A DNA stretch of 64,000 nucleotides from an uncultured Clostridia bacterium (GTDB lineage Bacteria; Bacillota; Clostridia; Oscillospirales; Ruminococcaceae). Each line of letters begins with the position of its first letter. Positions within the stretch are counted from its first letter, which is position 1. Where the stretch lies: the NCBI GenBank assembly GCA_944382845.1, contig CALWNN010000082.1, forward strand, positions 105,731 to 169,730, given 5' to 3'. The translations under genes were made by a program, and so were the position numbers. Below are positions 23,907 to 60,635 of this stretch, one piece after another. The notes under the pieces are model-generated. The model worked only from the letters and a program-made list of their open reading frames with translations. It searched no databases and was not told the origin of the DNA.

Positions 23907-24093
23907 AAATTGGCGCAAACTCCGGCGATTGCAACTCGTCGCAGTTTGCTCCTCAGTGGGCAAGTTGGGATTCCTGCCTAATGCCTCAACTGAAAAACTG
24001 AATGGAACCCTGCCTCCCATAGGAGGCGGACCCGCCTAATATGAGGCAGACCTGCCGAACATTCGGCAGGGGGACATCGGCGACTTGGTTATC
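23907..24093 (+). repeat. Dispersed palindromic repeat, copy A
   Basis: About 187 bp. Left end TAAATTGGCGCAAACT, an inverted pair GCAAACT/AGTTTGC, then small palindromes CTGCCTCC/GGAGGCGG, GCCT/AGGC and CTGCCGAA/TTCGGCAG, and the right end GGGGGACATCGGCGACTTGG. It fills the hisF-yeiH gap, and its last bases (GGTTAT) provide the complement of the hisF stop codon TAA. Orientation is defined by the right end pointing to higher coordinates. Confidence 0.85.
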
Positions 24094-24844
24094 TCATGGC
24101 AATTCCCTTTTTACGACAGTCGGCTTTTACTTCGTCAACTGTAAGTTCCTTAAAGTGGAAAAGACTTGCGGCAAGAGCAGCAGAACAATCAGTTCTCAAA
24201 AATGCGTCGGCAAAGTCCGAAAGTTTTCCCGCACCGCCGCTTGCGATAACAGGAATTTTAACGGCGTTTACCACCTCTTTAAGCATAGGGATATCAAAGC
24301 CACCTCTTACTCCGTCAGTGTCTATAGAGTTTAAGCATATTTCCCCTGCTCCGAGCTGTTCGACCTTTTTAACCCATTCGATAAGGTCAAGACCCATGTC
24401 TACTCTTCCGCCGTTAATATAAACTGTCCATTTATTTTCAGCAGTTTTTTTGGCGTCAATACCAACGCATATGCACTGGCAGCCGAAAATATCCGCCCCC
24501 TCTTTTATAAGCTGAGGATTAAGCACTGCCTGTGAGTTTACCGATACCTTATCGGCGCCTGCTCTTAAAGTTTCTCTTATGTCGTCAACGGTTTTGATAC
24601 CTCCACCCACAGTCAGTGGAACAAAGACCTTTTTTGCAGTTTCTCTTACCACATCCAGCATAACTCCCCTTCCTTCGTAGGAAGCGGTTATATCGTAAAA
24701 CACGATTTCGTCTGCGCCCTGTCTGTTGTATTCCTCGGCGCAAAGCACAGGATCGCCGACTTCTTTTATTCCTTCAAAATTGACCCCTTTTACTACCTTA
24801 CCGTCACGGACGTCAAGGCAGGGTATGATTCTCTTAGCAAGCAT
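24089..24844 (-). CDS. hisF: Imidazole glycerol phosphate synthase, cyclase subunit
   Basis: 251 residues, TIM barrel. The catalytic aspartates appear in [14 protein letters not shown] (residue about 11) and [11 protein letters not shown] (about 130), and the phosphate loops are VGGGI and ASGGAG. With HisH it turns PRFAR and ammonia into IGP and AICAR. Its start overlaps the last base of the hisH stop (TGATG-type junction), so the two subunits are made together. The stop codon lies within the edge of a dispersed repeat. Confidence 0.96.
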
Positions 24845-25461
24845 CAGTATACCTCCCCGGATAGTCTGACAAAGTTCTTAAGAATTTTAAGCCCCGTATT
24901 TCCGCTTTTTTCCGGGTGAAACTGTGCGCCAAAAACGAACTTTCCATCTGTAACCAGTGCGGGAATCTTATTTCCGTATGTGCAGTATGCAACGACATTT
25001 TCATCATTGCAAAAAGCTTTATACGAGTGAACAAAATATACATATTCCTCTTCACCAAGTCCCTCAAGGAGCGGGCAATCCTTGATATTGTATTCAAGTC
25101 TGTTCCATCCCATATGCGGAATAACAAGATCCGGTTCGATTATTTTATCAACCTTTCCTTTGACAAGTCCCAATCCATCGCACTCTTCAAACTCATAGCC
25201 CTTTTCAAAAATAAGCTGCATACCAAGGCAAATGCCGAGAAAATATTTTTTCTTTGCCTGCTCTTTTATCGTTTCAACAAGACCGCTTTCCCGAAGCATT
25301 TTCATAGCCCACGAAAAAGCTCCTACGCCGGGAAGGATTATCCCTTTTGCATTTTCAATATCATCTTTTGATTTTGTAAGTTTATTTTCAATTCCAAGAT
25401 AATCAAGAGCGTTTTTTACTGAAAATATATTGCCTGCGCCGTAGTCGATTATTGCTATCAT
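24844..25461 (-). CDS. hisH: Imidazole glycerol phosphate synthase, glutaminase subunit
   Basis: 205 residues, class I glutamine amidotransferase. The triad is visible: cysteine in [12 protein letters not shown] (about 80), histidine and glutamate in [11 protein letters not shown] (about 183-185). GYGAGN-like start [11 protein letters not shown] is typical. It feeds ammonia through the HisF barrel. Starts immediately after hisB with AAAGGGAGTGTTGTAA ahead. Confidence 0.96.
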
Positions 25462-26046
25462 TTACAACACTCCCTTTGTTGAAAGTACTTCTCCTGTTTC
25501 ATTCTTTTTCACAGCCGCCTTGACTGCATGAGCGCAAGCCTTGAAAAGCGCCTCTGCAATATGGTGGTCGTTTTTGCCGTAGCATGATTTAAGGTGCAAA
25601 GTTATGCCTGCGTTAAATGCAAAAGCCCTGAAAAATTCCTCTGCAAGGCAAGTATCAAACTGACCTATCCTCTCATCACAAAATTCAGCGTCAAATACCA
25701 GAAAGGGTCTGCCGCTTACATCAACCGAACAAAAGCCAAGAGCTTCGTCCATGGGTATAAAAGCCGTACCATATCGGCATATCCCCGACTTATCCCCCAA
25801 AGCCTTGTTAAAAGCCTGCCCGAGAACTATTCCGGTATCTTCAACTGTGTGATGTCCATCAACATACAGGTCGCCTGTTACATTTACTTCAAGGTCAATG
25901 CCGCTGTGGACTGCAAAGGCAGTCAGCATATGGTCGAAAAATCCTATGCCTGTATTGATTTTAACGCTTCCGCTACAGTTATCAAGAGAAAGTTTTACCA
26001 GAATATTTGTTTCTTTTGTTGTTCGTTTTATTTCGGCGTTTCTCAT
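25462..26046 (-). CDS. hisB: Imidazoleglycerol-phosphate dehydratase
   Basis: 194 residues, the monofunctional form. Two manganese-binding repeats are visible: DLYVDGHHTVEDTGIVLGQAF (HHxxED) and CYGKNDHHIAEALFKA. It dehydrates IGP to imidazole acetol phosphate. There is no HAD phosphatase domain, so histidinol phosphatase must be a separate protein; a PHP-type candidate lies at 57565-58419. It follows hisC after 14 bp. Confidence 0.96.
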   Translation of the reverse strand: MRNAEIKRTTKETNILVKLSLDNCSGSVKINTGIGFFDHMLTAFAVHSGIDLEVNVTGDLYVDGHHTVEDTGIVLGQAFNKALGDKSGICRYGTAFIPMDEALGFCSVDVSGRPFLVFDAEFCDERIGQFDTCLAEEFFRAFAFNAGITLHLKSCYGKNDHHIAEALFKACAHAVKAAVKKNETGEVLSTKGVL

Positions 26047-26060
26047 AAATGTTATTCCTT

Positions 26061-27113
26061 TCAGAGTATTTCTTTGAGAGCATTGATTATCCGTGCATTT
26101 TCTTCCTCTGTTCCCGTTGAAATTCTTATAAAGCCGTTGAATTTTCTTATAGCAATACTCTTTTCAAGCATTTTTTCATAAATTTCCGTGGCATAGTCGG
26201 TTTTCACAAAAACGAAGTTAGTCACAGTTTTATACACCTCTGAGATCTTGTCGCTTGACTGTGCAAGGAAAGAAATTGCAACATAAAGGTCATTTCTTCC
26301 TGCAATTATTTTAGCAAGTCTTTCAGAAAGCATTTCCTTTTCCTTTAAAACAATCTCCCCTATCGTCTGGGAAACGGTATCGGTGTTATATGGTGATTTT
26401 ACAGCACGGAGAGCCGTTGTTATTTTCTTTCCGGCAACGGCAAACCCAAGTCTTATCCCTGCAAGTCCCAATGCTTTTGAGCAGGTCTTTAAAATAATAA
26501 GATTATCATATTCCTCAACGTCCTCAAGCATGGATTCGCTCCAAAAATCCATATATGCCTCGTCAAGAACAACAAGGCAGCTGCTGTCAATACATCTTAA
26601 AAGCTTTTCAACATCGTCTCTGTCAAGACCAAGGGAAGTCGGGTTGCATGGATTTGAGAAGATAAGCATTTTCGCCTTACTTTCATTGCAGAATCGTATA
26701 AGCTTGTTTACATCTATTGTAAGGTCCTCTTCCTTCTCAAATACAAGCGCCTCGGTCTCATAGATGCTTCCGTAAAAAGCGTACATTGAAAAGTCGTGAG
26801 AAAGAGTAACTACCCTATCGCCTGTCTCCAGAAATGTACTTGAAATTATGCTTATAAGCTCGTCCGAGCCGTTTGAAGCAGTTACAAAATCGGGATTTAC
26901 CGCATAAAGGTCTGCAAATGCCTTTATTGCCCCCTTTGCCATAGGGTCCGGGTAGCGGTTGAACAATATGTTATCAAGAGCGGACTTTATTTTATCTTTT
27001 GTACCTTCATCAAGATCATAAGGCGACTCGTTTGCGTCAACTCTGACATCATAATTTCCCGTAATCGGATCATATGGAATCAGGTCTTTGAGTTTTTTGT
27101 TAAGTTCGTACAT
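26061..27113 (-). CDS. hisC: Histidinol-phosphate aminotransferase
   Basis: 350 residues, fold-type I PLP enzyme. ASNGSDELISI (cofactor phosphate site), IFSNPCNPTSLG, VVLDEAYMDFW with the PLP-binding aspartate/tyrosine, and LKTCSKALGLAGIRLGF containing the Schiff-base lysine (about 212). The N-terminal DANESPYDL is typical of HisC. It lies between hisD and hisB with GGAAGGCTTTTGT ahead. Confidence 0.95.
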   Translation of the reverse strand: MYELNKKLKDLIPYDPITGNYDVRVDANESPYDLDEGTKDKIKSALDNILFNRYPDPMAKGAIKAFADLYAVNPDFVTASNGSDELISIISSTFLETGDRVVTLSHDFSMYAFYGSIYETEALVFEKEEDLTIDVNKLIRFCNESKAKMLIFSNPCNPTSLGLDRDDVEKLLRCIDSSCLVVLDEAYMDFWSESMLEDVEEYDNLIILKTCSKALGLAGIRLGFAVAGKKITTALRAVKSPYNTDTVSQTIGEIVLKEKEMLSERLAKIIAGRNDLYVAISFLAQSSDKISEVYKTVTNFVFVKTDYATEIYEKMLEKSIAIRKFNGFIRISTGTEEENARIINALKEIL

Positions 27114-27130
27114 ACAAAAGCCTTCCTCTC

Positions 27131-28420
27131 TCAGAATCTCACTTTAATGGAATTTGCATGAGCGGTAAGTCCTTCTCTCTTCGCAATAAGCATAATATCG
27201 TCCTTAGCTTCTCTTAAAGCGTCCTCGGTATAGTAAATAAAGCTTGAACGCTTTTCAAAGCTGTTTACAGAAAGAGGAGAGAAAAATCTTGCGGTACCGC
27301 TTGTAGGAAGGACGTGGTTAGGTCCTGCGTAATAATCTCCCAAAGGCTCAGGTGCATAATTTCCAAGGAAAACACTTCCTGCGTTATCAAGTCTGCCGAT
27401 GTATTCCATTGGATTTTCAAAAAGCACTTCAAGGTGTTCGGGAGCAATCCTGTTTGCAATCTCACAGGCATTATCCTTGTTGTCGCAGATTATTATTGCT
27501 CCGTAATTTGAAAGAGATTTTAAAATTATGCTTGCTCTTGAAAGAGTGGGAAGCTGTTTTTCGAGTTCTGAAACAGTTTCTTCTGCAATTCTTTCGCTTG
27601 TTGTAATCAGAACGGCAGACGCAAGAGGATCATGTTCAGCCTGCGACATAAGGTCCGCCGCAATATATCTTGGATTTGCCTTATGGTCTGCAAGTATAAG
27701 GATCTCGCTGGGACCTGCTATCATATCGATGTCGACAGTTCCGTAAAGAAGCTTTTTAGCAGTTGCAACATAAATATTTCCCGGACCTACTATCTTATCC
27801 ACTTTTGGTATCTGTTCTGTTCCGTAAGCCAGAGCGGCAACAGCCTGTGCCCCGCCTGCAAGAAAGACTCTGTCCACTCCGCAGATAGCGGCGGCAACAA
27901 GAATATCCTTGTTGGGAAGTCCGTTCTTAAGCGGAGGAGTCACCATAATAATCTCCTTTACCCCTGCAATTTTTGCAGGAACGGCATTCATTATCACAGA
28001 GGAAGGGTAAGCGGCTGTCCCTCCCGGAACATAAAGACCAACCTTGTCAAGTCCTCTTACACGCTGACCTAAAATAACCCCGTTTTCCTTCGGATCTATA
28101 AAGCTTCTTGACTTCTGTTTTGAATGAAATTCAGTTATGTTTTCCATTGCGCTTAAAAGTGCGTCAACAAACTTCTGATCCGCTTCTGTGAGAGCGTCGT
28201 TTATTATCTCTCTCGGCACTTCGTAATACTTTGATTTAACGCCGTCAAATTGTTTTGTATAGTCGATTACAGCCTTATCGCCGCCGTTTTTAACATTTTC
28301 CAGAATCTCAGAAACAACGGCTGTCACTTTTTTATCAGTCTCGCCGCTTCGTTTCTGCATCTGGCTGAAAAATTCCTCTTCCGCAGTTCCGTCTGCATAA
28401 ATGGTTTTGATGATTGACAT
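27131..28420 (-). CDS. hisD: Histidinol dehydrogenase
   Basis: 429 residues. VPGGTAAYPSSVIMNAVPA, GPGNIYVATAKKLLYG, IDMIAGPSEILILAD and QAEHDPLASAVLIT are HisD signatures, including the zinc ligands (histidine in AEHD and near the C-terminus in NHVLPTSG). It oxidises histidinol to histidine with two NAD. Ribosome site GGGAGGTTAATAT. Confidence 0.96.
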   Translation of the reverse strand: MSIIKTIYADGTAEEEFFSQMQKRSGETDKKVTAVVSEILENVKNGGDKAVIDYTKQFDGVKSKYYEVPREIINDALTEADQKFVDALLSAMENITEFHSKQKSRSFIDPKENGVILGQRVRGLDKVGLYVPGGTAAYPSSVIMNAVPAKIAGVKEIIMVTPPLKNGLPNKDILVAAAICGVDRVFLAGGAQAVAALAYGTEQIPKVDKIVGPGNIYVATAKKLLYGTVDIDMIAGPSEILILADHKANPRYIAADLMSQAEHDPLASAVLITTSERIAEETVSELEKQLPTLSRASIILKSLSNYGAIIICDNKDNACEIANRIAPEHLEVLFENPMEYIGRLDNAGSVFLGNYAPEPLGDYYAGPNHVLPTSGTARFFSPLSVNSFEKRSSFIYYTEDALREAKDDIMLIAKREGLTAHANSIKVRF

Positions 28421-28423
28421 ATA

Positions 28424-28615
28424 TTAACCTCCCTGAGTCTCATTGCTTAATTCGCTTCTGATTTTTTTGTAACTTAAAACCCTTTGTACTGTTTTTCCGA
28501 GAGAAAAAGCCGCAGCAAGGATTATTCCCAAAATAAAATTTTCTCCATCGCATAAAATGAGAATTATCACAACAAGCGCAATTGTAATAATCACATCAAG
28601 CGCATATTCAAACAA
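28424..28615 (-). CDS. Small two-helix membrane protein in the his operon
   Basis: 63 residues if translation begins at the TTG at 28615 (AAAAGAGAAT before it, a weak site). The frame stays open about 22 codons further upstream without an ATG, so the start is uncertain. Two hydrophobic segments are visible, VIITIALVVIILILC (about 8-22) and FILGIILAAAF (about 27-38), followed by a basic KTVQRVLSYKKIRSE. It fills the space between hisG and hisD and ends 3 bp before hisD, so it looks like a real operon member. No family recognised. Confidence 0.5.
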   Translation of the reverse strand: MFEYALDVIITIALVVIILILCDGENFILGIILAAAFSLGKTVQRVLSYKKIRSELSNETQGG

Positions 28616-28687
28616 ATTCTCTTTTATATGCTTTTTCAGAAGGAAATTTTTCCTTTCAGCCTGTGTAAAAGCTTTCCTCTAAATAAT

Positions 28688-29323
28688 TTACTCCCCTATA
28701 TTTTCCTCGACAAGTCTTACAAGATTCTCGATTTCCTTTTGTCTCAGTTTCATGCTTACGACGTTGACTATAAGTCGGGCGGAAATATCTGCAATATATT
28801 CTATAACTTCAAGTCCGTTTTCTTTAAGGGTAGTTCCCGTTTCAACGATATCCACGATCCCATCTGAAAGTTCAAGAAGAGGAGCAAGTTCGACCGAGCC
28901 TTCTATCTTTACGATTTCAACGTCCATTCCCTTACTTTCAAAATAGTTTCTTGCCACATTGGGGTACTTTGTGGCAATTGTCTTAACGTCATAGCCGCCG
29001 TAAAATTTTGAGCCTTTCTTTGCCGCAAGTGCAAATCTGCACCTTCCGAATCCCAGATCGCACAGCTCATAGAATTTTCCTTCCATCTCCATTATGGTGT
29101 CCTTACCTACAACGCCGATATCGCACACTCCATGTTCAACATAGGTTATAACATCGTTTGCCTTTGCAAGAACAACTTCCAGATTTCCGTCGGAAACAGG
29201 AAGAATGAGCTTTCTTCCCTTTTCTCTTACAGCGGTACAATCATAACCAATCTTTTCAAAAAGTCCTATTGTATCCTTTTCAAGCCTGCCTTTAGTAAGT
29301 GCGATTCTCAAAGGTTTATTCAT
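28688..29323 (-). CDS. hisG: ATP phosphoribosyltransferase, short form catalytic subunit
   Basis: 211 residues, the short HisG form without the C-terminal regulatory domain, so it depends on HisZ. Signatures: RIALTKGRLEKDTI near the start, DIGVVGKDTIME (about 75) and the PRPP loop DGIVDIVETGTTLKENGL (about 154-171). It catalyses the committed step, ATP plus PRPP to PR-ATP, and is the expected target of histidine feedback. The ATG at 29323 has AAAGGAGG 9 nt upstream, inside the 3' end of hisZ. Confidence 0.95.
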   Translation of the reverse strand: MNKPLRIALTKGRLEKDTIGLFEKIGYDCTAVREKGRKLILPVSDGNLEVVLAKANDVITYVEHGVCDIGVVGKDTIMEMEGKFYELCDLGFGRCRFALAAKKGSKFYGGYDVKTIATKYPNVARNYFESKGMDVEIVKIEGSVELAPLLELSDGIVDIVETGTTLKENGLEVIEYIADISARLIVNVVSMKLRQKEIENLVRLVEENIGE

Positions 29324-30521
29324 CACAGCGGACCTCCTTTACCTCGGTATCTATAACTATCACCTTTGGGATTTTACATTCCCTTGCGTACTGGATAGTT
29401 TCTTCAGCAGTGTCGAAAAGTCCGTTTTCAACTACAAGTCCTTCCTTTGCAAGCTTTTCGGCGTAGCTTATTGCTTCCACAACAAAGCCTTTCTTTCCGA
29501 AAACAATAGCGTCCGGAGTTTTCACCTTTGGAGACATACCCCTTTTTCTCAGGTAGTTTGCCACCGCGTCAACCGTAATCCCAAAGCCTACTGCGTTTGC
29601 TTCTCTGCCGAATTCTCCTAAAAGTCCGTCATATCTTCCGCCCTTTAAAACAGAATGTCCAACTCCGGAAATATATCCCTTGAATACCACTCCTGTATAA
29701 TAGTCGGTATGACTTACAATGCCAAGGTCCACCGACAGCTTATCCTCAAATCCTAAGCTTGAAAGGCGGTTATAGACTTCTCTTAAATGAACAAGTATGC
29801 CGTCTATCTTTTCATCGGTATAAAGTTCAGATGCCTTGTCAAATACCTCAACTCCGCCGAAAAGCCGAGGAAGCTGCTTTAAAGTTCTTATTATCTTGTT
29901 ATCCCCGAAGCTGTCAAGAAGGTCGTTTAACGCAGGATAGTTCTTTGCGGAAATCAACATTCTTATTTCTTCTCTTACGTCTTGGTCAACGTTAAGTCTT
30001 GCAACGAGTTCCTTGAAATAACCTATATGACCTATCTCAAGACGGAAATTGTCCCTGTCAAATTCTTTAAGCGCTGATACGGCAAGGCACAGAACCTCAT
30101 AATCCGAACGCTTTATGGACGAACCTCCGATAAGCTCTACACCCGCCTGAACAACTTCGTCTGATCTTCCCTTTAAAAGAGAATTATTTTTATATACGCT
30201 CTGATTATAAAATAATCTCAGAGGCAGTCTCGAATCCTTGAGTCTTGTTGCAACAAGTCTTGCAATTGGAATTGTAGAGTCGGGTCTTATTACAATAAGT
30301 CTGCCCTTTGAATCCGTAAGCTTATAAAGGCTTTCCTGAGAAAACCCCCTAGAGCTTCCGCTGAAAACATCATAAAACTCTATTCCCGGAGTTACGACTT
30401 CGCTGTAGCCGAATCCGGTAAACAGCTTTTCAAGCTTTCTTTCAACTTCCCTTCTGGCAAGGCTTTCTTCAAATAGAAGGTCTCTTGTGCCTTCGGGAGT
30501 TATAAGGTCGTATCTTTTCAT
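29316..30521 (-). CDS. hisZ: ATP phosphoribosyltransferase regulatory subunit
   Basis: 402 residues, a histidyl-tRNA synthetase paralogue. It has the class II catalytic-like core: TPEGTRDLLFEES, RPDSTIPIARLVATRL and GGRYDGLLGEFG. It lacks a proper anticodon-binding role and pairs with short HisG to form the hetero-octameric enzyme. The ATG at 30521 follows GGGGGATAAT; upstream in-frame codons overlap the promoter. It is the first gene of the histidine operon and overlaps hisG by 8 bp. Confidence 0.93.
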   Translation of the reverse strand: MKRYDLITPEGTRDLLFEESLARREVERKLEKLFTGFGYSEVVTPGIEFYDVFSGSSRGFSQESLYKLTDSKGRLIVIRPDSTIPIARLVATRLKDSRLPLRLFYNQSVYKNNSLLKGRSDEVVQAGVELIGGSSIKRSDYEVLCLAVSALKEFDRDNFRLEIGHIGYFKELVARLNVDQDVREEIRMLISAKNYPALNDLLDSFGDNKIIRTLKQLPRLFGGVEVFDKASELYTDEKIDGILVHLREVYNRLSSLGFEDKLSVDLGIVSHTDYYTGVVFKGYISGVGHSVLKGGRYDGLLGEFGREANAVGFGITVDAVANYLRKRGMSPKVKTPDAIVFGKKGFVVEAISYAEKLAKEGLVVENGLFDTAEETIQYARECKIPKVIVIDTEVKEVRCDE

Positions 30522-30551
30522 ATTATCCCCCATATGTATAAATTGTTTTAG

Positions 30552-30567
30552 TGTAGTAAAGTAGTAG
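30552..30567. promoter_or_regulatory. Possible operator of the his operon
   Basis: TGTAGTAAAGTAGTAG, with GTAGT repeated 8 bp apart, lies between the hisZ -10 box and the ATG, where a repressor would block transcription. A TrpR-like histidine regulator is a possible ligand, but this is inference from position only. Confidence 0.3.
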
Positions 30568-30576
30568 CATATTACT

Positions 30577-30605
30577 ATAATATCATAACAAACAATCTCT
30601 GTCAA
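30577..30605 (-). promoter_or_regulatory. Promoter of the his operon
   Basis: Minus strand: TTGACA (30600-30605), 17 bp, TATTAT (30577-30582). The leader to hisZ is only about 50 nt, too short for a T-box. Confidence 0.82.
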
Positions 30606-30623
30606 TTATATATTTGCTACAAA

Positions 30624-50830: not shown

Positions 50831-51013
50831 TTTAAATCGGAGCAAAGTGTTGATAACTACATCTCACTCAGAGCTATACATCTCATTCGGAGCTAACATC
50901 TCTTTCAGAGCTGTGCTTAATCACGTTGCGACGAAAAGCAACCTGTCGCTGACTGTAGCAAACTGAATGGAACCCTTCCGTTTAGGCAGGGGGACATCGG
51001 CGATGCGGTTATA
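50831..51013 (+). repeat. Dispersed palindromic repeat, copy C
   Basis: Left end TTTAAATCGGAGCAAAG and right end GGCAGGGGGACATCGGCGAT with GGTTATA. The palindromic middle is reduced and replaced in part by three tandem units of about 19 bp (separate entry). Confidence 0.8.
50860..50914 (+). repeat. Three imperfect 19-bp tandem units inside copy C
   Basis: CATCTCACTCAGAGCTATA, CATCTCATTCGGAGCTAA and CATCTCTTTCAGAGCTGTG follow one another directly. Their shared core is CATCTC-N-TTC-R-GAGCT. Confidence 0.8.
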
Positions 51014-51106: not shown

Positions 51107-51130
51107 ATCGCTTGCTTAAGCTTTTTTATT

Positions 51131-51157
51131 CCCCCGGTACAACCGGGGGTTTATTTT
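51131..51157 (+). terminator. Strong plus-strand terminator
   Basis: Perfect stem CCCCCGGT / ACCGGGGG with loop ACA, then TTTATTTT. It would end the transcript from the promoter at 50713. Confidence 0.8.
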
Positions 51158-51176
51158 CGCTAAAGCTACAATAAAA

Positions 51177-51203
51177 AACTGCACAGCATAAACCGTGCAG
51201 TTT
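51177..51203 (-). terminator. Terminator after the ABC transporter
   Basis: Stem AAACTGCAC / GTGCAGTTT with a 9-nt loop, then TTTATTG on the minus strand, 11 bp past the stop. Confidence 0.82.
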
Positions 51204-51213
51204 AAAATTTTGC

Positions 51214-54200: not shown

Positions 54201-54225
54201 TGACAGCATTTTTAAGCTCAAGCAT
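51214..54225 (-). CDS. MacB/FtsX-like ABC transporter, ATPase and permease fused
   Basis: 1003 residues. Residues 1 to about 225 are the ATPase: Walker [10 protein letters not shown] (about 38), signature [15 protein letters not shown] and Walker [15 protein letters not shown] linker and one membrane helix (about 278-298, [19 protein letters not shown]) lead to a very large outer domain (about 300-860). The last part has three helices around [32 protein letters not shown] and [19 protein letters not shown], the FtsX/MacB type permease. Such proteins move the outer domain mechanically, exporting peptides or lipoproteins or sensing cell-wall antibiotics. The outer part contains helices with repeated LSEEEL and MSDEDL/MSDEQL patterns (about 745-810). 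The MarR regulator upstream is 37 bp away, so it likely shares the promoter. Confidence 0.9.
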
Positions 54226-54261
54226 ATAACAAATACCTCCGTTTAAATTATTATGCTATTT

Positions 54262-54708
54262 TCAAATCAGGTTTTGCGTTTTTTTAAGTTCAATAACGTT
54301 ATTTTTTATAGTTTCAAGATACAGCATTATTTTTTTCTTGTCTTCCTGTCCAAGGTCTTTAAGCAGATAGTCATGTATCTTTTCTTTTAACTCAAGTCCT
54401 TTATTTATAACAGGCTCCGCCTTTTTTGTCGGGACCAGTTTTATTTTTCTTCTGTCATTTTCCACAGAACGTCTTTCAAGATATCCCATCGACACAAGCT
54501 TATCAACATTAAAAGAAACGATATTCGGCTTAATACAACGGCTGCTGCATATATCCCTTGCAGTTTTGCAATCAGGGTCGGACCCCAAAAGCAGCAATAT
54601 CCCAAGTGCAGAATAACTCACCCCGGCCTCTTTACACAAAGGATGAAAAAGCTCCTGATATATTCCCATTACACTTTGAAGTATCTCAATACAAACAAAC
54701 TCGTTCAT
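54262..54708 (-). CDS. MarR-family transcriptional regulator
   Basis: 148 residues. A winged helix is visible, with helix 3 as DCKTARDICSSRCIKPNIVSFNVDKLVSMGYLERRSVENDRRKIKLVPT, the MarR DNA-binding and wing part (about 47-95). It probably represses its own operon with the ABC transporter; the palindrome TTCAATATTGAA sits next to its promoter. The ATG at 54708 is 8 nt behind GGGGAG; a GTG 9 bp earlier overlaps that site. The inducer is unknown. Confidence 0.88.
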   Translation of the reverse strand: MNEFVCIEILQSVMGIYQELFHPLCKEAGVSYSALGILLLLGSDPDCKTARDICSSRCIKPNIVSFNVDKLVSMGYLERRSVENDRRKIKLVPTKKAEPVINKGLELKEKIHDYLLKDLGQEDKKKIMLYLETIKNNVIELKKTQNLI

Positions 54709-54731
54709 TTTATTCACTCCCCTTAAATTTG

Positions 54732-54743
54732 TTCAATATTGAA
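54732..54743. promoter_or_regulatory. Candidate MarR operator
   Basis: Perfect 12-bp palindrome TTCAATATTGAA located just downstream of the -10 box, where binding would block transcription of marR and the transporter. Confidence 0.55.
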
Positions 54744-54752
54744 ACTTCCTAA

Positions 54753-54781
54753 ATTGTAACACATATATTTCCCCCTGTCAA
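54753..54781 (-). promoter_or_regulatory. Promoter of marR-ABC operon
   Basis: Minus strand: TTGACA (54776-54781), 17 bp, TACAAT (54753-54758). Confidence 0.82.
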
Positions 54782-54956
54782 CATTTTCACCGACTTTTCA
54801 TCTTTTCCACATATAAGCCATTGGCGTCCGCAAGGGCGGAAGGCAGCTTCAGAAAAATGCGATGGGAACGGTGCATTTTATCGCACTGCACAGCATAGCC
54901 GTGGCGGCGTTGTCGCCGAAGTCGCAGACTACTTGCTATATTTACTCAACAAAAAA

Positions 54957-54981
54957 CCACACAGAAAACAATTCTGCGTGG
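54957..54981 (-). terminator. Terminator after the GH5 gene
   Basis: Stem CCACGCAGAA / TTCTGTGTGG (one G-T pair) followed by TTTTTTG on the minus strand. The 170 bp between this and the marR promoter hold several GC-rich small inverted pairs (such as GGCGGC...GTCGCC) but nothing assignable. Confidence 0.8.
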
Positions 54982-54990
54982 TTAAAAAAA

Positions 54991-56013
54991 TCAAAGATAT
55001 TTAATTATTTCATCAATGGCTCCGACAAGTTCCTTATCGCAAAGGCCGTAATCAACTTCCTTATAACTCCATGCGGCTCTTGCAATACCTGCTTTTCTGA
55101 ATGCCGCATTTATGTCCTTATACCAGTTGATAAGAGAGGTCTTGTCAGCAAGTTTTATTGTTCCGTACTCGCCACAGTAAAGAGGCACATTTTTCTCTTC
55201 TGCAACTTTTACCGCAACTTCAAATCTGCCTTCAAAAAACTCCGATGAAAAGCTTCCCTTTTCACCTGTGTAATATGGCAGAAAATCAAATTGGAATTTA
55301 TCCTTTGCATTGTTGTATTCTTTGAAATCTCCCGGATAGTCGATCCTGAAATCAGACGGCATATTATCTACCCAATATGCTCCCTGATGGGTAAAAAGAA
55401 GCGGGTCATAACAATGGAACGTATACACTATTCCGTCGTCAATCGGTATATCGATATCCTTTAATGCGTCAATTGAATTGTTCCAGTAACTTCCCACAAC
55501 GATGCGCTTATCCTTTGATTTGCTCCTTATTATTCCAATTGCTTTTGAAGCAATCTCATTCCATGCGTCTATATACGACGGGTCTGTGACCTCGTTTAAA
55601 AGTTCAAATACAACGTCATCGCCTGTTTTTCCGTATCTTTCTGTAAACTCTCTCCACAAGTCATAGAATCTTTCCTGAAGCTTTTCGCTTTCAAAAAATC
55701 CCGCTTCCTTCTGAGCCTTATCAAAGAAAAATCCTGCGGTTTTATGAAGATCCAGAATTACCCCAAGCTTACATTTTTCAGCCCATTCAAATGCCCAGTC
55801 AAGATATCTGAATCCTCTCTCTGTAGTTTTTCCATTTTCGTCCTGAAAAATATTATAGTCAACAGGAATTCTTACATGGTCAACTCCCCAGCTTTTTACC
55901 GTTTTAAAATCATTTTCAGTTATAAAATTATCAAGTCTTTCATCAGAATAATCACACTGTGAAAGCCATCCTCCTAAGTTTACTCCTTTTTCAAAGCCTG
56001 CAAATTTTCGCAT
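54991..56013 (-). CDS. Glycoside hydrolase family 5 enzyme, no signal peptide
   Basis: 340 residues. GH5 marks: KGVNLGGWLSQ (start), VDHVRIPVDYNIF, GVILDLHKTAG with the conserved HK, FELLNEVTDPS carrying the acid/base glutamate (about 141), YTFHCYDPLLFTHQG and the nucleophile in YCGEYGT (about 283). It should cleave beta-linked glucans or related oligosaccharides. There is no N-terminal signal sequence, and no dockerin or carbohydrate-binding module, so it should act inside the cell on imported oligosaccharides. Ribosome site AAAGGGAGTGTTTTA. It has no sugar-transport neighbours here. Confidence 0.9.
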   Translation of the reverse strand: MRKFAGFEKGVNLGGWLSQCDYSDERLDNFITENDFKTVKSWGVDHVRIPVDYNIFQDENGKTTERGFRYLDWAFEWAEKCKLGVILDLHKTAGFFFDKAQKEAGFFESEKLQERFYDLWREFTERYGKTGDDVVFELLNEVTDPSYIDAWNEIASKAIGIIRSKSKDKRIVVGSYWNNSIDALKDIDIPIDDGIVYTFHCYDPLLFTHQGAYWVDNMPSDFRIDYPGDFKEYNNAKDKFQFDFLPYYTGEKGSFSSEFFEGRFEVAVKVAEEKNVPLYCGEYGTIKLADKTSLINWYKDINAAFRKAGIARAAWSYKEVDYGLCDKELVGAIDEIIKYL

Positions 56014-56149
56014 TAAAACACTCCCTTTATATAATTATTTTCTTTATTTTTATTATACAAAGCCGAGCTTTTTTGTTATACTAAAAAATAAATATAAATT
56101 GTGAACATTTAATCTATTATTATCCGTAAATCTTGTACCAGCAATTATA

Positions 56150-56279
56150 ACTCTCACTGAAAAAATGAATGAAACCCCGTCTCCAATAGGAGGTGTATCA
56201 TCCCACAGGAGGCAGACCCGGCTAATATGAGGCAGACCTACCGAATATTCGGCAGGGGGACATCAGTGACTTGGCTATA
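56150..56279 (+). repeat. Dispersed palindromic repeat, copy D
   Basis: About 130 bp, lacking the usual left end. It contains GTCTCCAATAGGAGG, TAATATGAGGCAGACC, CCGAATATTCGG and the right end GGGGGACATCAGTGACTTGG. It overlaps the 3' end of the LytTR gene and supplies the last 13 or so codons and its stop. Confidence 0.82.
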
Positions 56280-56981
56280 TCTCGACTTATATTCCGATAA
56301 CTGCTGATAAAAAAAGTCTTTTTTATTCCTGCTTATAGGAAGAATAGTTCCTGTATCGGTTACAACTTTAGACCTTGTGTACGACTTGATATGATTTATA
56401 TTTACTGCAAAGCTTCTGTGGATCATAATAAAAGGATAATCGGAGCAGAAATCTGCAATTGCGTCATAACAATAATAATGGTTGTCTACTGTAAAAATAT
56501 TGACCTTTCTGAGCGCTTGTTCGCAGTATACTATGCTGTTTACAGGAATACTTATGCACTCGCGGTTTTGAATAAACTCAACAAATCCGAGTGAATTTAC
56601 AACGTTTGCTTTTGAGAGAGATATTTTCTTCAATGTGTTATTTAATTCGTCGAATTTTGCCGGTTTCTGAAGGATAGAAAAAGTTTGCTTATAAAGATTT
56701 TCAAACAGTATCCTCTGAGATCGACTAATCTTAAAATTCGTATAGAATATTATTTTAAGCTCCGGATAATCCAATACAAGCTTCTCTGCAAAAAGAATAT
56801 TCTTCTCATCTTTCAGACTGATATCCGCTATAATACAGTCAGCCTTTTCATAACACTCCTTCGGTATATCAGCCAGCTCAGTAAATATCTCCGCCTGAAA
56901 TTCAACACCGCTTTCAACAGCTATTTTTCTTATATTTTCTGCCGAATTATAGTCCTTGTCGCAAATTACAAGTTTAAGCAA
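56238..56981 (-). CDS. LytTR-family response regulator
   Basis: 247 residues. An N-terminal receiver domain (1-120) has CDKD (acidic pocket), the likely phosphorylated aspartate in IIADISLKD (about 54), YTN and the lysine in LQKPAKF. A LytTR DNA-binding domain covers about 140-235, with YCEQALRKVNIFT, MIHRSFAVNINHI and ISRNKKDFFYQQL. Family members control quorum, bacteriocin or autolysis genes. There is no histidine kinase, agr-like or peptide gene beside it. The final residues SQVTDVPLPNIR come from repeat copy D, so the original C-terminus has been replaced. Confidence 0.87.
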   Translation of the reverse strand: MLKLVICDKDYNSAENIRKIAVESGVEFQAEIFTELADIPKECYEKADCIIADISLKDEKNILFAEKLVLDYPELKIIFYTNFKISRSQRILFENLYKQTFSILQKPAKFDELNNTLKKISLSKANVVNSLGFVEFIQNRECISIPVNSIVYCEQALRKVNIFTVDNHYYCYDAIADFCSDYPFIMIHRSFAVNINHIKSYTRSKVVTDTGTILPISRNKKDFFYQQLSEYKSRYSQVTDVPLPNIR

Positions 56982-57098
56982 CTTTTCAATCCCCCCGTTT
57001 TAATTAGCTTTTCCCTTACAGTAATATTATAACATAAATCTATAATTATGCAATACGTGTTATTTATTACAACATGAGTGCTATTTCTTACATATAGA

Positions 57099-57127
57099 TT
57101 GATTTGTTGTGTGGAAATTGATATAAT
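57099..57127 (+). promoter_or_regulatory. Plus-strand promoter in the 57 kb gap
   Basis: TTGATT (57099-57104), 17 bp, TATAAT (57122-57127), divergent from the LytTR gene. A transcript of about 265 nt would end at the terminator at 57333. In 56982-57564 I see no convincing gene: the one longer frame (57177-57416) has no ribosome site and runs through the terminator. Confidence 0.5.
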
Positions 57128-57332
57128 AAAAATATAATAGCTGTTTGATACTTTAATTTTCTGTTAATTAGTTCGATTGCGAAACGTCTTTAGATCTGCT
57201 GATCACAAACATTTATATCAAATCATTTCATTAGTGATAATTTACAAACACTATTATCACACAGTTCCTCTTATTTTCTTTCCGGCATTTTACAATATTG
57301 CAAAGACCCACTTGCAAACTAAAATGCCAGTG

Positions 57333-57399
57333 ACAAGACCATGCCTTTTTTACAGGGCATGGTCTTGTGCCTTTTTTACAGGGCATGGTCTTGTTTTTT
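57333..57399 (+). terminator. Terminator with a 26-bp tandem duplication
   Basis: ACAAGACCATGCC pairs with GGCATGGTCTTGT. The 26-bp unit 57342-57367 (TGCCTTTTTTACAGGGCATG followed by GTCTTG) is repeated exactly at 57368-57393, then TTTTTTA. Either copy can form the 3' arm. Confidence 0.72.
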
Positions 57400-57512
57400 A
57401 TAGATTTAATTTTTAGATATCGGAATCGTCAGCCTATTCCATCGGACTTACTTAGATGAATTAAAACGCCTAAGATAACGGGTATCTATTCCAAAGATTT
57501 TTTCAGCAAATA

Positions 57513-57555
57513 AAAGCCTGTCCTCAGTTTATTGAAATAACCAAGGACAGGCTTT
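57513..57555 (-). terminator. Terminator after hisK
   Basis: Perfect 12-bp stem AAAGCCTGTCCT / AGGACAGGCTTT with a 19-nt loop, 10 bp past the stop; it should work in both directions. Confidence 0.83.
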
Positions 57556-57564
57556 ATTTATCAC

Positions 57565-58419
57565 TTACAGTTTTATAAAAACCGGTTTGTGTTCCTTAAA
57601 GTATGCGACGTATTTAAAGCCTGATTTTTTAGCAATCTCCGCACCCTGTTCGATTCCCTTTCCAATATCCTGAACGCAGTGGGAGTCAGAACCAAGGCTC
57701 AAAATTTCTCCTCCAAGCTCCCGATAGCGTTTCACATAAAGCTCATCAGGAAAAGTCTTTCCGTATTTCTGTCTCAGTCCAGATGTGTTTATTTCAATTC
57801 CCTTGCCGTTATATATCACAGTTTTAAATATTTCGTCTATTATGTCATCATATTTTTTTAGGTCTACTTTTATCCCCGCATTTCCTTCAATGTAGCGAAG
57901 AGTATAAGTGAGATGCCCTAAAACATCAAATTTACCTAACTTCGCAAGTTCCAGCACCTCAACAAAATACCTGTCAAGAAGCCCCATAACTTCATCATGT
58001 GTATACATACTGTAATCTATAAGAGCAAAATCTTCAGTTTCATAAAGCTGATGAAGAGAGCCGATGATAAAATCAACTCGCCTATCGTCAACAACTATCT
58101 GTGCAAGATCAGGTTCTTGATTTGCCTGACCAAGCTCAACTCCGCAGATAAGCTCTATTTTATCGGAATACTTTTCCTTAAGCTTTGTTATTTCGGCAAC
58201 AGAATTCAGATAATCCTGCCCGAAATCAAAATACAGATAAGTTGTGGGGTTAATGTAATGCTCCCGTCCGTACCACCGATTGCACTCGCAGTGGTCGGTT
58301 ATGGCATAGGCAGAAAGCCCAAGGTCTATCGCTCGTTCTATCATTTCGTTTATGTCAGCTTCCGAATCAACCGAAAACCCTGTGTGTGTGTGGCAGTCAA
58401 TAAGTCCTTTAACGTCCAT
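57565..58419 (-). CDS. hisK: Histidinol-phosphatase, PHP family
   Basis: 284 residues. PHP metal-binding motifs: IDCHTHTGFSVDSEAD (about 7), AITDHCECNRW, GVELGQ, GSLH and SLGSDSHC. The HisJ/HisK subfamily removes phosphate from histidinol phosphate, the step not covered by the monofunctional HisB in the main cluster. The ATG at 58419 has AAAGGAGAGATTAC before it. Substrate inferred from family and the otherwise missing step. Its promoter region is repeat copy E. Confidence 0.88.
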   Translation of the reverse strand: MDVKGLIDCHTHTGFSVDSEADINEMIERAIDLGLSAYAITDHCECNRWYGREHYINPTTYLYFDFGQDYLNSVAEITKLKEKYSDKIELICGVELGQANQEPDLAQIVVDDRRVDFIIGSLHQLYETEDFALIDYSMYTHDEVMGLLDRYFVEVLELAKLGKFDVLGHLTYTLRYIEGNAGIKVDLKKYDDIIDEIFKTVIYNGKGIEINTSGLRQKYGKTFPDELYVKRYRELGGEILSLGSDSHCVQDIGKGIEQGAEIAKKSGFKYVAYFKEHKPVFIKL

Positions 58420-58443
58420 GTAATCTCTCCTTTTCCTATTTGA

Positions 58444-58626
58444 TTTAAATCGGAGCAAACTTCAACCTGTGCAACTCTTCGCAGTTTGCTTCTCAGTCTT
58501 TCAGTGGAGGATTATAACCCCCACTGAAAGACTGAACGGCCCCTGCCTCCAATAGAAGGCAGACCCACCTAATATGAGGCAGACCTGCCGAATATTCGGC
58601 AGGGGGACATCGGCGACTTGATTATA
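58444..58626 (+). repeat. Dispersed palindromic repeat, copy E
   Basis: About 183 bp, full length. Left end TTAAATCGGAGCAAACTT, inverted pairs GCAACT..AGTTTGC and CTTTCAGTGG/CCACTGAAAG, palindromes CTGCCTCC/GAAGGCAG, AATATGAGGCAGACCTGCCG and CCGAATATTCGG, right end GGGGGACATCGGCGACTTG. It fills the hisK-ACT divergent gap. Read on the minus strand, its right tip gives CCTATAATC, a possible -10 for hisK with TTTACT 16 bp ahead. Confidence 0.85.
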
Positions 58627-58678
58627 GGATAACATATATCGCAGTAAAATTTGTAACAAAATTGTTGTAATATAATAT

Positions 58679-58707
58679 TTGATTTTTTTAATAATTTGTG
58701 ATATACT
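58679..58707 (+). promoter_or_regulatory. Promoter of the UPF0237/UPF0210 pair
   Basis: TTGATT (58679-58684), 17 bp, TATACT (58702-58707), about 35 bp before the ATG. Confidence 0.66.
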
Positions 58708-58745
58708 GTATCATGTATTTTTATAATTGATTTGGAGGAAATAAA

Positions 58746-59015
58746 ATGAGAGCAGTTATAACCGTTATCGGACATGACGCAGTAGGTATCCTTGCAAAGG
58801 TTTCAAATCGCTGCGCTGAATTTAACGCAAATGTTATAGAGGTAACACAGTCGGTTCTTCAGGATATGTTCGCTATGATAATGCTTGTTGACATTTCAAA
58901 AATAAACAAGCCTTTTGCTGAGCTTTCCGACAACATGACCGAACTTGGTCAGAGCATGGGGCTTTCAATACATACCATGCATGAAGATATTTTTAATTGT
59001 ATGCACCATATTTAA
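58746..59015 (+). CDS. ACT domain protein (UPF0237)
   Basis: 89 residues, one ACT domain: VITVIGHDAVGILAKVSNRCAEFNANVIEVTQSVLQDMFAM. ACT domains bind small ligands, often amino acids. UPF0237 is nearly always followed by UPF0210, as here, so the two proteins probably work together. Ribosome site TTTGGAGGAAATAAA. Ligand and role unknown. Confidence 0.92.
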   Translation: MRAVITVIGHDAVGILAKVSNRCAEFNANVIEVTQSVLQDMFAMIMLVDISKINKPFAELSDNMTELGQSMGLSIHTMHEDIFNCMHHI

Positions 59016-59069
59016 AGTTTACCTGAAGAAAGGAGGACACGCTTCATTTTTGGAGCGTCCGTACTTAAT

Positions 59070-60425
59070 ATGCTTAATGCTTATGACATACTTGAAACTA
59101 TAAGAATGATACAGGACGAATGTCTTGACATAAGAACTATTACAATGGGCATTTCCCTTCTTGACTGTATCGACTGCGATATCGACGTTGCCTGCGAAAA
59201 GGTTTATAACAAAATAACAAGGTGTGCCAAGGACCTTGTCAGGGTCGCAGATGACATTTCAAAGGAATACGGTATTCCGATTATAAACAAGAGAATTTCC
59301 GTAACGCCTATCGCCATTGTTTCTGCCGCCTGCAAATGCTCGCCTGTGAAATTTGCCCTTGCAATGGATAAAGCCGCTAAAGCAGTAGGAGTCGACCTTA
59401 TCGGCGGATATTCGGCTCTTGTTCCAAAAGGCTTTTCCGCAGGCGACATAGAACTTATCAATTCAATTCCGGAAGCGCTTAAACTCACTGACAAAGTATG
59501 CTCGTCTGTAAATATCGGTTCGACTAAAACAGGAATCAACCTTGACGCCTGCAAAATGATGGGACGTATTGTAAAAGAATGTGCGGAAGCTACTGTTGAC
59601 AAAGCTTGTTTCGGTGCGGCAAAGCTTGTTGTGTTCTGCAATGCAGTTGAAGACAACCCGTTCATGGCCGGCGCTTTCCACGGCGTAGGCGAGCCTGATG
59701 TTATGATAAATGTCGGAGTTTCCGGACCGGGAGTCGTACGTTCGGCTCTCTCAAAATACCCGGACGCAAATATTACCGAAATATCAGATATCATAAAGAA
59801 AACCTCGTACAAGATAACAAGGATCGGTCAGCTTGTGGGAGTTACCGCATCAGAACGTCTTGGGGTTCCTTTTGGAATAGTTGACCTTTCACTTGCGCCT
59901 ACTCCTGCAGTGGGAGATTCGGTTGCGCACATTTTAGAGGAAATCGGACTTGAAAGATGCGGAACTCACGGAACTACCGCGGCTCTTGCCCTATTAAACG
60001 ACGCAGTTAAAAAAGGCGGCGTTATGGCTTGCTCAAGGATAGGCGGACTTTCCGGAGCGTTTATCCCTGTTTCGGAGGATTCGGGAATGATAGACGCCGC
60101 TAAATCAGGCTGCCTTACAATTGAAAAGCTGGAAGCAATGACTGCTGTTTGCTCAGTGGGACTTGATATGATAGTTGTTCCGGGAGATACAGAGGCTGAT
60201 ACGATTTCTGCTATAATCGCTGATGAAGCCGCTATCGGCATGGTAAATACCAAAACCACTGCTGTAAGAATTATCCCTGCAATCGGCAAGAATGTCGGTG
60301 ATGAACTTGACTGGGGCGGACTTTTCGGCTGCGGACCTGTTATGCCTCTCAAAAAGGAATCACCGTCAAAATTCATTAACAGAGGCGGTCAGATACCCGC
60401 TCCTCTTCACAGCCTTAAAAACTGA
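59070..60425 (+). CDS. UPF0210 (PFL family, DUF711) protein
   Basis: 451 residues. Family marks include [18 protein letters not shown] near the start, ARVGGYSAL-like [25 protein letters not shown] and [12 protein letters not shown], with a C-terminal [11 protein letters not shown]-type end (here [13 protein letters not shown]). The fold resembles glycyl-radical enzymes' PFL but there is no glycyl radical loop; its function is unknown. The strong Shine-Dalgarno AAAGGAGG (59029-59036) lies 33 nt before the ATG, with a hairpin GGA-CGCT/AGCG-TCC between. An in-frame ATT at 59046 sits 9 nt after the Shine-Dalgarno and could be a non-standard start. Confidence 0.9.
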
Positions 60426-60433
60426 TATCTTTT

Positions 60434-60467
60434 AAAACCGCTGAAACTCAATTTCTGCGGTTTTTTT
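60434..60467 (+). terminator. Terminator after the UPF0210 gene
   Basis: Stem AAAACCGC / GCGGTTTT with inner GAAA/TTTC pairing, then TTTTTTTG, 9 bp past the stop. Confidence 0.87.
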
Positions 60468-60523
60468 GTATTTGTTCTACTAAAAATATTAATCCGTAAG
60501 TTTAAAATTTGTAGGTAATTTTA

Positions 60524-60552
60524 TTGAAATTTAACGTAAATCATGTTAAAAT
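60524..60552 (+). promoter_or_regulatory. Promoter of the lipoprotein gene
   Basis: TTGAAA (60524-60529), 17 bp, TAAAAT (60547-60552). The leader of about 115 nt contains repeat copy F. Confidence 0.68.
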
Positions 60553-60568
60553 ATATTTATCGGATTTA

Positions 60569-60635
60569 AACCATCGCCTATAGGAGGCAGCCCTGTCACA
60601 TACTCGGCGGGGGACACCGGCGACTTGGTTATAGC
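60569..60635 (+). repeat. Dispersed palindromic repeat, copy F (short)
   Basis: About 67 bp: CGCCTATAGGAGGCAGCCCTG, ACTCGGCGGGGGACACCGGC and GACTTGGTTATAGCA. It lies in the 5' leader of the lipoprotein mRNA, between promoter and ribosome site. Confidence 0.75.

Follow-up and report, generated by a model that had tools for sequence, protein, structure and literature searches.

What kind of sequence are the six palindromic repeats that lie dispersed between genes in the window, the 64,000-nucleotide stretch of DNA analyzed here, and what could have placed them beside genes? The host is an uncultured Ruminococcus relative with a genome of 2.14 Mb, called the own genome in the counts below. All six copies reported by the first-pass annotation were confirmed. 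The search pattern for right ends, a 22-mer at up to 3 mismatches, matched 6 times in the window and not once in any of 100 dinucleotide-preserving shuffles. The left-end 16-mer alone (up to 3 mismatches) matched 4 times in the window, which is not above chance: shuffles average 1.92 matches, and 8 of 100 reach 4 or more. The repeat is therefore best recognized by its right end. The copies are listed on their proper strand, the one with the target ATAA upstream.

23904..24088, minus strand: copy 1, full (23907–24093 in the first-pass annotation), between a PF03601 gene (22824–23879, minus strand) and hisF
24089..24092, minus strand: presumed target ATAA of copy 1; the hisF ORF 24089–24844 (protein end GIAMR, then stop) terminates at its TAA
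44655..44743, plus strand: copy 2, short, including its TATAG; orientation opposite to the other five
50831..51013, minus strand: copy 3, full, including its TATAA; three ACATCTC..GAGCT units in the left module
56150..56279, minus strand: copy 4, left end lost, including its TATAG
58444..58626, minus strand: copy 5, full, including its TATAA; the search query
60565..60633, minus strand: copy 6, short, with both ends (TTTAAACC ... GACTTGGTTATA), including its TATAA

The copies lie close to gene ends, as had been noted. Copy 2 precedes the probable ribosome-binding site of an EngA-like GTPase gene, the LytTR response-regulator ORF (56238–56981, minus strand) runs into copy 4 and terminates within it, and copy 5 is probably in the leader of a PHP-domain gene. 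As single-stranded DNA, copy 5 forms a strong fold (z −7.4); two matches of the window to a terminator-like consensus fall inside it, without a real T run. The earlier description of the short copies needs two corrections: the one at 56150 has no left end, and the one placed at 60569 has both ends, with its left TTTAAACC at 60565.

A patchy family with sharp ends

The genome-wide count called for earlier gives 141 right ends in the own genome (76 forward, 65 reverse; up to 3 mismatches), well over a hundred copies, and 0 for the reversed control pattern. The metagenome-assembled genome G397 harbors 119 right ends and a third genome 14. The repeat is absent from four congeners and from 394 of 397 family genomes (up to 2 mismatches), and other sampled genomes of the order never have more than 2 matches each; the 11 with 1–2 matches were treated as near chance, the reversed control giving 1 match in each of two genomes. 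Plasmids and phages had no match in distant mode, and viral contigs no exact match. No Rfam family reached its gathering score in the window and 20 of the repeat loci, and among the open-licence papers listed no title or abstract opening names such a repeat for Ruminococcus relatives. The proposal of a dispersed family with common boundaries and REP- or MITE-like hairpins is upheld, and neither outcome named earlier as speaking against it, a total of six copies lacking common boundaries or a match to a known family, was observed. The repeat resembles a mobile element rather than a fixed RNA; it carries no gene, and the enzymes that may move its copies are candidates by analogy.

The ends are best seen on the strand opposite to that of the first-pass annotation. 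There, (T)ATAA is directly followed by CCAAGTCGCCGATGTCCCC, then by palindromes and finally by GATTTAAA. Conservation is 1.2–2.0 bits per base inside the repeat and at most 0.35 outside both ends, and the ATAA, on one side of the repeat, is conserved at 98–99% per base. Full copies have fixed ends and measure 77–328 nt; their interior is a mosaic of hairpin modules, with about 62 module strings in 74 full copies. Of 114 copies, 85 have a palindrome next to the 5′ end, versus a shuffle mean of 7.25, and a GGAGC..GCTCC palindrome was seen, uncounted, at the 3′ end of some copies. The hairpin evidence includes a C-G/T-A exchange. By eye, the majority 3′ end has no terminal inverted repeat. In a minority of copies the 3′ end, TTTAAATCGTCGCCGAGG on the originally annotated strand, partly matches the 5′ end in inverted form, with GTCGCCGA as the common part.

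A classical MITE with target duplication is not supported. No duplication of 2–12 nt was found in 74 full copies (z between −2.4 and +0.9), a test that a TA within the near-invariant bases would escape, and the two ends resemble each other only partially. Of the earlier interpretation, the family, its boundaries, its hairpins and the proximity to gene ends are supported. Since TA is near-invariant at both ends, testing for a TA duplication is uninformative. The best of 1848 pairs in a position-pair test on 88 copies reached z 3.0. Among the sites compared, no empty site aligned base-exactly. The insertion within an ORF at C46:22251 was rejected as proof of an empty site, the one similar frame in G232 looking non-genic with sub-cutoff Pfam matches only; at the locus pair L069/L033 one member has a copy that is absent from the other, and the two are too diverged for base-exact alignment.

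The ATAA beside the repeat is often the stop codon of the neighboring gene. Seventeen ORFs of the own genome and 11 of G397 stop exactly at its TAA. These are 28 of the 41 ORFs that reach the junction when 80 nt are looked at (expected one third, p = 5e-6), and 28 of 52 when 200 nt are looked at (p = 0.002). The other side of the repeat shows no excess (6/16 at 80 nt, 6/28 at 200 nt). Nine such ORFs have an orthologue, and in 7 of them the native stop lies within 3 codons. The hisF orthologues in G002, G003, G166 and G232 stop at the same codon as in the host, that of G397 one codon later, and the hisF end in G232 reads AGATAA as in the own genome. The stop-codon counts and the hisF orthologues suggest, at the level of sequence, that the ATAA existed before the insertion.

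Orientation and the replication strand

GC skew served as a proxy for replication direction. The proper orientation falls on the G-rich strand in 86 of 114 copies of the own genome (p = 5e-8), and in 71 of 85 where |skew| is at least 0.05. With skew randomized by contig, p is 0.00045; 25 of 33 contigs are in agreement and 8 against, and 19 of 21 contigs agree under strong skew. Copies also tend to be oriented along the majority coding strand (78/114, p = 1e-4). When copies are stratified by the strands of the flanking genes, the odds ratio for skew is 6.2 (p = 4.5e-4, n = 98), and 34 under strong skew (p = 1.6e-5, n = 72); with skew accounted for, gene direction has p = 0.75 (tandem pairs only). 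Orientation therefore tracks replication, not transcription, once both are considered. The RNA-level function suggested earlier is a candidate role. Convergent (13/20), divergent (16/24) and counter-skew tandem gaps (7/9) of the own genome are not significant singly. Intergenic TATAA is about equally frequent on the two strands (491/474), and the G-rich strand has slightly more of the four-letter ATAA (1539/1397).

The bias in G397 has the same direction: 44 of 71 copies (p = 0.057), 31 of 51 at |skew| of at least 0.05 (p = 0.16), p = 0.24 by contig, and p = 0.043 after stratification by genes (strong skew, p = 0.25). The lagging-strand orientation bias is present in the own genome and weak in G397.

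Mode of movement and rival explanations

We favor, with a probability of about 0.57, a non-autonomous, transposase-less element of the PATE type (IS200/IS605-like) that inserts as single-stranded DNA 3′ of (T)ATAA and has BOX-like modularity. The common boundaries, copy number, modularity, absence of a 2–12 nt duplication, skew-strand bias of the own genome and stop-codon coincidence were all observed. We infer that skew marks the replication strand, that the intermediate is single-stranded, that an HUH enzyme acts, and that the ATAA is a target and not an element end. Passage of the fork would leave the lagging-strand template single-stranded, on which the palindromes of the repeat could fold. 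An HUH-type transposase specific for single strands, provided in trans, would excise the repeat as single-stranded DNA. No target duplication would arise when it inserts the repeat into the lagging-strand template, 3′ of a further ATAA. Hairpin modules gained, lost and repeated may then give rise to the mosaic family. Since the stop codon TAA is part of ATAA, a gene remains intact after an insertion directly past its stop, and such a landing site would explain how more than 100 copies accumulated beside genes with the genes unbroken.

The own genome has no intact Y1 gene and one Y1 relic (on C31), and the 14-copy carrier has no intact Y1 gene. Neither the relic, whose locus was checked by eye, nor the two IS605 elements of G397 (two intact tnpA) qualified as a source; a pattern search found neither repeat end at the G397 loci. 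TnpB (PF07282) was found in G397 only. No Y2 transposase matched, and the controls were silent too. An autonomous long copy was also rejected: 24 of 103 left ends in the own genome lack a right end in the next 400 nt, 5 of these 24 having one at 0.4–4 kb. The first 300 nt of the 24, viewed by eye, look like copies that are truncated or diverged, or like chance matches, and no transposase was recognized in them. As no resident Y1 transposase gene was found whose ends match, the claim is that the repeat works like IS200/IS605, not that it descends from it.

RUP is a MITE of the IS630/Tc1-like kind that depends on a DDE transposase. Such an element, whose terminal inverted repeats would be imperfect and whose 2-bp TA duplication would be concealed in the near-invariant TATAA and TTTAAA, is a disfavored and unlikely explanation here. 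It would account for the TA at both ends and for the 3′ ends that resemble the inverted 5′ end, and two head-to-head pairs, in which one TTATAA is common to both partners, fit a TA duplication equally well. However, the single tandem junction, GATTTAAA followed directly by TCAAG, has one A more than a TA duplication predicts, its partner being just a 15-nt remnant. No IS630-type DDE_3 (PF13358 only) matched in the own genome, G397, G166 or G232, external duplications of 2–12 nt are absent, and following the skew strand independently of genes is not expected of such elements. It is doubtful, too, that the repeats form a class of their own, mobile hairpin elements that are single-stranded and coupled to replication, have stop codons (ATAA) as safe harbors, exchange modules while single-stranded and are moved by something other than a recognizable Y1 or IS630 enzyme, possibly encoded by the host.

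Also improbable is a repeat of the REP/BIME type that owes its movement or copying to a TnpA-REP (RAYT) enzyme since lost from the genome. A portion of PMC3733652 ascribes to REPs palindromes, a stop codon from one end and proximity to 3′ gene ends, and TnpA-REP proteins are HUH enzymes according to a passage of PMC6006769; but no GTAG/CGTC tag was seen by eye at the hairpin foot, the units have fixed ends at 77–328 nt instead of 20–40 nt, and the relic is the only Y1 gene of the own genome. A host-selected polar DNA or RNA element, such as a chromosome-organizing motif, an mRNA 3′ stabilizer or a terminator with mobility secondary, would explain the strand polarity, the retained hairpins and the proximity to stop codons. 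It is very improbable given the absence from four congeners and most family genomes, the maximum of 2 matches in other sampled genomes of the order, the freely varying modules, the presence of copies in tandem, convergent and divergent gaps alike, and the lack of an Rfam family at gathering score.

Relation to known systems

The PATE-type reading draws on the PATEs of Haloquadratum, which, in the relevant part of PMC3119063, are likewise too short for a transposase gene, have near-terminal palindromes and a conserved terminal oligonucleotide as target, the presumed role of the ATAA here, make no target duplication, occur in core-deleted short versions and reach many copies though most transposase genes are broken. 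A PATE-like element is mentioned for Halanaerobium in a section of PMC7290912. Unlike PATEs, the present repeat has no sequence link found to a resident IS605 element, and it has a shuffled hairpin-module interior, a target that is often a stop codon, and a Ruminococcus-relative host. IS200/IS605 elements, as portrayed in parts of PMC7290912 and PMC6006769, insert 3′ of a 4–5 nt target, as the repeat presumably does, and share lack of duplication and subterminal hairpins; the same parts report a lagging-strand preference, like that of the repeat, for IS608 and ISDra2. The IS605 of Halanaerobium shows no strand preference there (10/22 leading; PMC7290912), so the bias is not universal in the family. 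In contrast to IS200/IS605, we recognized no tnpA/tnpB or guide sequence in the repeat (by eye, no tetranucleotide complementary to ATAA at the hairpin foot), and a minority of copies have partial inverted similarity of the ends.

The small mobile repeats (SMRs) of Haloquadratum are similar to the present repeat in that they measure about 80–110 bp and are said in the part of PMC3119063 that treats them to make no target duplication, to have no related transposon and to move in an unknown mode; their inverted terminal repeats are prominent, whereas ours has a partial one in a minority at most. Pneumococcal BOX, compared by its description in part of PMC3049150, is modular and hairpin-forming, with a variable number of internal units and a similar abundance, some 125 copies in a genome of about 2 Mb. 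It differs in its TIR and target duplication, and its 60.8% leading-strand share is said there to mirror coding bias, whereas our repeat follows skew after gene stratification. REP/BIME/REPIN sequences with RAYT, as outlined in parts of PMC3733652 and PMC3116915, share palindromes near 3′ gene ends and a stop codon provided by one end; the present units are longer, both of their ends are fixed, the stop is TAA where REPs have TAG, and no GTAG/CGTC tag was seen by eye. A strand bias that follows skew after gene stratification offers a genome-only test of single-strand transposition, applicable to other orphan repeats. The repeat unites the duplication-free insertion of PATEs with the modularity of BOX, two features that the papers cited here describe separately.

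Anatomy and copy number of the repeat

The first-pass annotation had claimed six copies in the window. This was borne out, with the right-end 22-mer (the end on that annotation's strand) found six times at ≤3 mismatches and never in 100 shuffles. The genome-wide count it had called for gave 141 right ends by the same pattern and threshold (76 forward, 65 reverse; reversed pattern, 0) in 2,135,633 bases on 93 contigs, 99.8% complete. Blastn with copy 5 (58444-58626, minus strand) gave at least 63 genome matches, with 40 of 183 candidates scored. The repeat is real, dispersed, modular and patchy.

On contigs C7, C8, C22, C50, C80 and C84 of this genome, repeat matches begin 61-268 nt from the contig start. 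As several contigs start near a copy, the assembly was probably broken there by the repeat; these starts further suggest that the contigs lack some copies or else an autonomous form.

The anatomy was read from 797,398 bases of the genome, namely the window and stretches or loci picked around known copies, which hold 114 right ends at ≤4 mismatches. On the annotation's strand a full copy starts with TTTAAATCGGAGCAAAG or TTTAAATCGTCGCCGAGGAG and ends with CGGCGACTTGGTTAT(A). On the opposite, "proper" strand it reads (T)ATAA followed directly by CCAAGTCGCCGATGTCCCC, then one or more palindromes and further sequence, and finally GATTTAAA. Conservation per base is 1.2-2.0 bits within the repeat versus at most 0.35 beyond its ends. 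In the adjoining TATAA the first T is present in 100/114 and the remaining four bases each in 112-113/114.

Modules of the repeat
17-nt unit, 0-7 copies per element
GTCTGC..GCAGAC hairpin
CAGTGGGGG..CCCCCACTG hairpin
ATAGGAGGCGGATCATCC unit
Terminal CTGCCGAATATTCGGCAG palindrome

The 74 full copies are 77-328 nt long (median 190) and show about 62 module strings, approximate because the module finder is fuzzy, including an empty string in six copies. Identity between full-length copies reaches 94.5% in the closest pair, with a median of 80% over 67 comparable pairs. At least one copy (locus L089, 19203, forward strand, 0-based start) has the GATTTAAA end at both sides, inverted, with a single module in the middle and without the ATAA end. 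In G166, a genome of the same family, right ends occur that carry CGACAAGGTTATA in place of CGACTTGGTTATA, perhaps a subfamily.

As a single strand, copy 5 is predicted to fold as DNA much more strongly than shuffles (z -7.4). In 85/114 copies a palindrome with five or more uninterrupted pairs begins 20-31 nt from the TATAA start; 20 mononucleotide shuffles gave a mean of 7.25 and a maximum of 12. When all 114 copies are set in one fixed register, 52 have C-G at pair 4 and 13 have T-A there, and against 1000 permutations five of the eight pairs lie at or near the maximum, two at the mean and one below it. The earlier statement that no known family fits held for Rfam: at gathering score only tRNA matched over the window, and nothing matched in the window copies or over 20 repeat loci. 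The best sub-gathering match on copy 5, a microRNA family (31.3 of 60 bits, E 9e-5), is taken as a generic hairpin.

Proposed target site and orientation by GC skew

The target duplication proposed as a check was looked for, and none of 2-12 nt was found. At C3:8678 one copy lies exactly between TATAA and the apparent first 15 bases of a second element (GATTTAAA|TCAAGTCGCC). This junction is as predicted for insertion 3' of ATAA; under a TA duplication it should have one A fewer. Two head-to-head pairs, recognised by reading (C44:7713 and C84:13136), have one TTATAA in common, which fits both ATAA-3' insertion and TA duplication.

The proper orientation follows GC skew in 86/114 copies (p=5e-8), and in 71/85 at |skew|≥0.05. 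Copies that share a contig cannot be treated as independent, so the skew sign was randomised by contig, giving p=0.00045, with the majority agreeing in 25 of 33 contigs and opposing in 8; among 21 strong-skew contigs the split was 19 to 2, and 0/20,000 randomisations were as extreme. Intergenic TATAA is about equal on the two strands (491/474), and ATAA is slightly commoner on the G-rich strand (1539/1397). The bias persists after removal of copies that coincide with a stop codon (70/93).

Copies in skew orientation by type of intergenic gap
Tandem with skew: 38/45, the sole type significant alone
Tandem against skew: 7/9, not significant alone
Convergent: 13/20, not significant alone
Divergent: 16/24, not significant alone

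Orientation also matches the majority coding strand in 78/114 copies (p=1e-4). Stratified by both flanking-gene strands, the skew effect remains (OR 6.2, p=4.5e-4, n=98; strong skew, OR 34, p=1.6e-5, n=72), and gene direction given skew had no effect in tandem pairs (p=0.75). G397, an uncultured Clostridia MAG (CAMMVF01), shows a weak bias in that same direction: 44/71 (p=0.057), 31/51 at |skew|≥0.05 (p=0.16), by contig p=0.24, and 18/29 (p=0.26) in an earlier, partly overlapping sample. Stratification there gives OR 4.3 (p=0.043) over n=66 and p=0.25 where skew is strong. Pooled over both genomes, the stratified OR is 5.5 (p=2e-5, n=164).

As is established, the leading strand is the G-rich one, and GC skew serves here as a proxy for replication direction. 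If ATAA is the target, the orientation found is the one that insertion into the lagging-strand template would predict. Most likely the repeat is a mobile element whose single-stranded form inserts into the lagging-strand template, 3' of ATAA.

Stop codons at the ATAA side

The count took in ORFs with at least 60 open codons that run in the direction of the ATAA side, leaving out in the first two counts those open through the whole stretch examined. Among 92 ORFs at 110 copies in the window's genome, 17 stop exactly at the TAA of ATAA and 7 inside the element within 80 nt, while 17 do so at a distance of 1-20 nt and 51 beyond that; for 58 ORFs at 68 copies in G397 the numbers are 11, 1 (inside the element), 13 and 33. 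With through-running ORFs included, 28/41 ORFs reaching the junction end at the TAA over 80 nt (expected one third, p=5e-6), and 28/52 over 200 nt (p=0.002), a stretch that extends past the element in short copies. The opposite side showed no stop excess in this genome (6/16 and 6/28).

Orthologues in the compared DNA were available for 9/31 junction-stop ORFs, and in 7/9 the native stop lies at most three codons away.

Native stop offsets of junction-stop ORFs
hisF: 0 in G002, G003, G166 and G232; +1 in G397
C15:5058 ORF: 0
C64:25616 ORF: -1
C64:33380 ORF: +1
Three G397 ORFs: +1, -3, +2
C38:39807 ORF: +3 and +10 (outside the seven)
C7:25331 ORF: -28, weak alignment (outside the seven)

The hisF copy has G instead of T before ATAA, giving the arginine codon AGA; the hisF orthologues shown end in arginine, and in G397 in arginine-lysine. 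Because native orthologues stop near the junction and hisF has this arginine codon, the ATAA is probably older than the insertion. Part of the pattern could also come from selection against longer C-terminal tails. In the window, a LytTR response-regulator ORF (56238-56981) runs with its C-terminus into copy 4 (56150-56279, minus strand) and stops inside it; its native tail may have been replaced by the copy.

Distribution, candidate enzymes and known elements

No right ends were found in four congeners, two of them about 80% complete. Three of 397 genomes in the family survey (own included, ≤2 mismatches) had matches: the window's genome 122, G166, of the same family, 6, and G232 1. In the order survey (394 genomes, own included, drawn without G166 and G232; related 18-mer, ≤1 mismatch) 12 matched, the window's genome among them, the other 11 with 1-2 hits each. 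By a 19-mer at ≤3 mismatches, G397 carries 119 right ends (reversed control 1) and G398, an uncultured Ruminococcus MAG (CALXIQ01), 14 (control 0). The G166 matches fall on the same contigs and positions as those of G398. The plasmids and phages searched gave no match, and viral contigs no exact match. Such a patchy distribution favours mobility or fast loss over a function essential to the host.

The sole match to the Y1 transposase domain (PF01797) in the window's genome is a degraded IS200-type tnpA relic (L124 251-484, near the end of C31). G397 has two intact genes, both within IS605-like elements, and a pattern search found neither end of the repeat at these two loci; G166/G398, G232 and the four congeners had no PF01797 match. 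At L136 1-100 in G397, a tnpA/tnpB-divergent IS605-like element adjoins the apparent GATTTAAA side of a copy. PF13358 had no match in the window's genome, G397, G166 or G232 and one sub-cutoff match in G003; PF07282 matched in G397 only. Excerpts of PMC3119063 report strain-specific insertions in Haloquadratum despite tnpA being disrupted in 15/15 and 16/17 cases.

The IS200/IS605 features used for comparison come from parts of PMC7290912 and PMC6006769. The IS605 copies described in that part of PMC7290912 show no strand preference (10/22), so strand bias is no universal mark. The contiguity of repeat and stop codon has a known precedent in REPs, some of which provide a TAG stop codon, as a section of PMC3733652 states. 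By modularity the nearest element is BOX, which, in the portion of PMC3049150 used, has terminal inverted repeats and target-site duplications. By mechanism the nearest kind, as far as the same excerpts of PMC3119063 describe them, are PATEs. The domains searched revealed no resident cognate transposase, so descent from IS200/IS605 is not claimed; the comparison suggests that the repeat works like a PATE.
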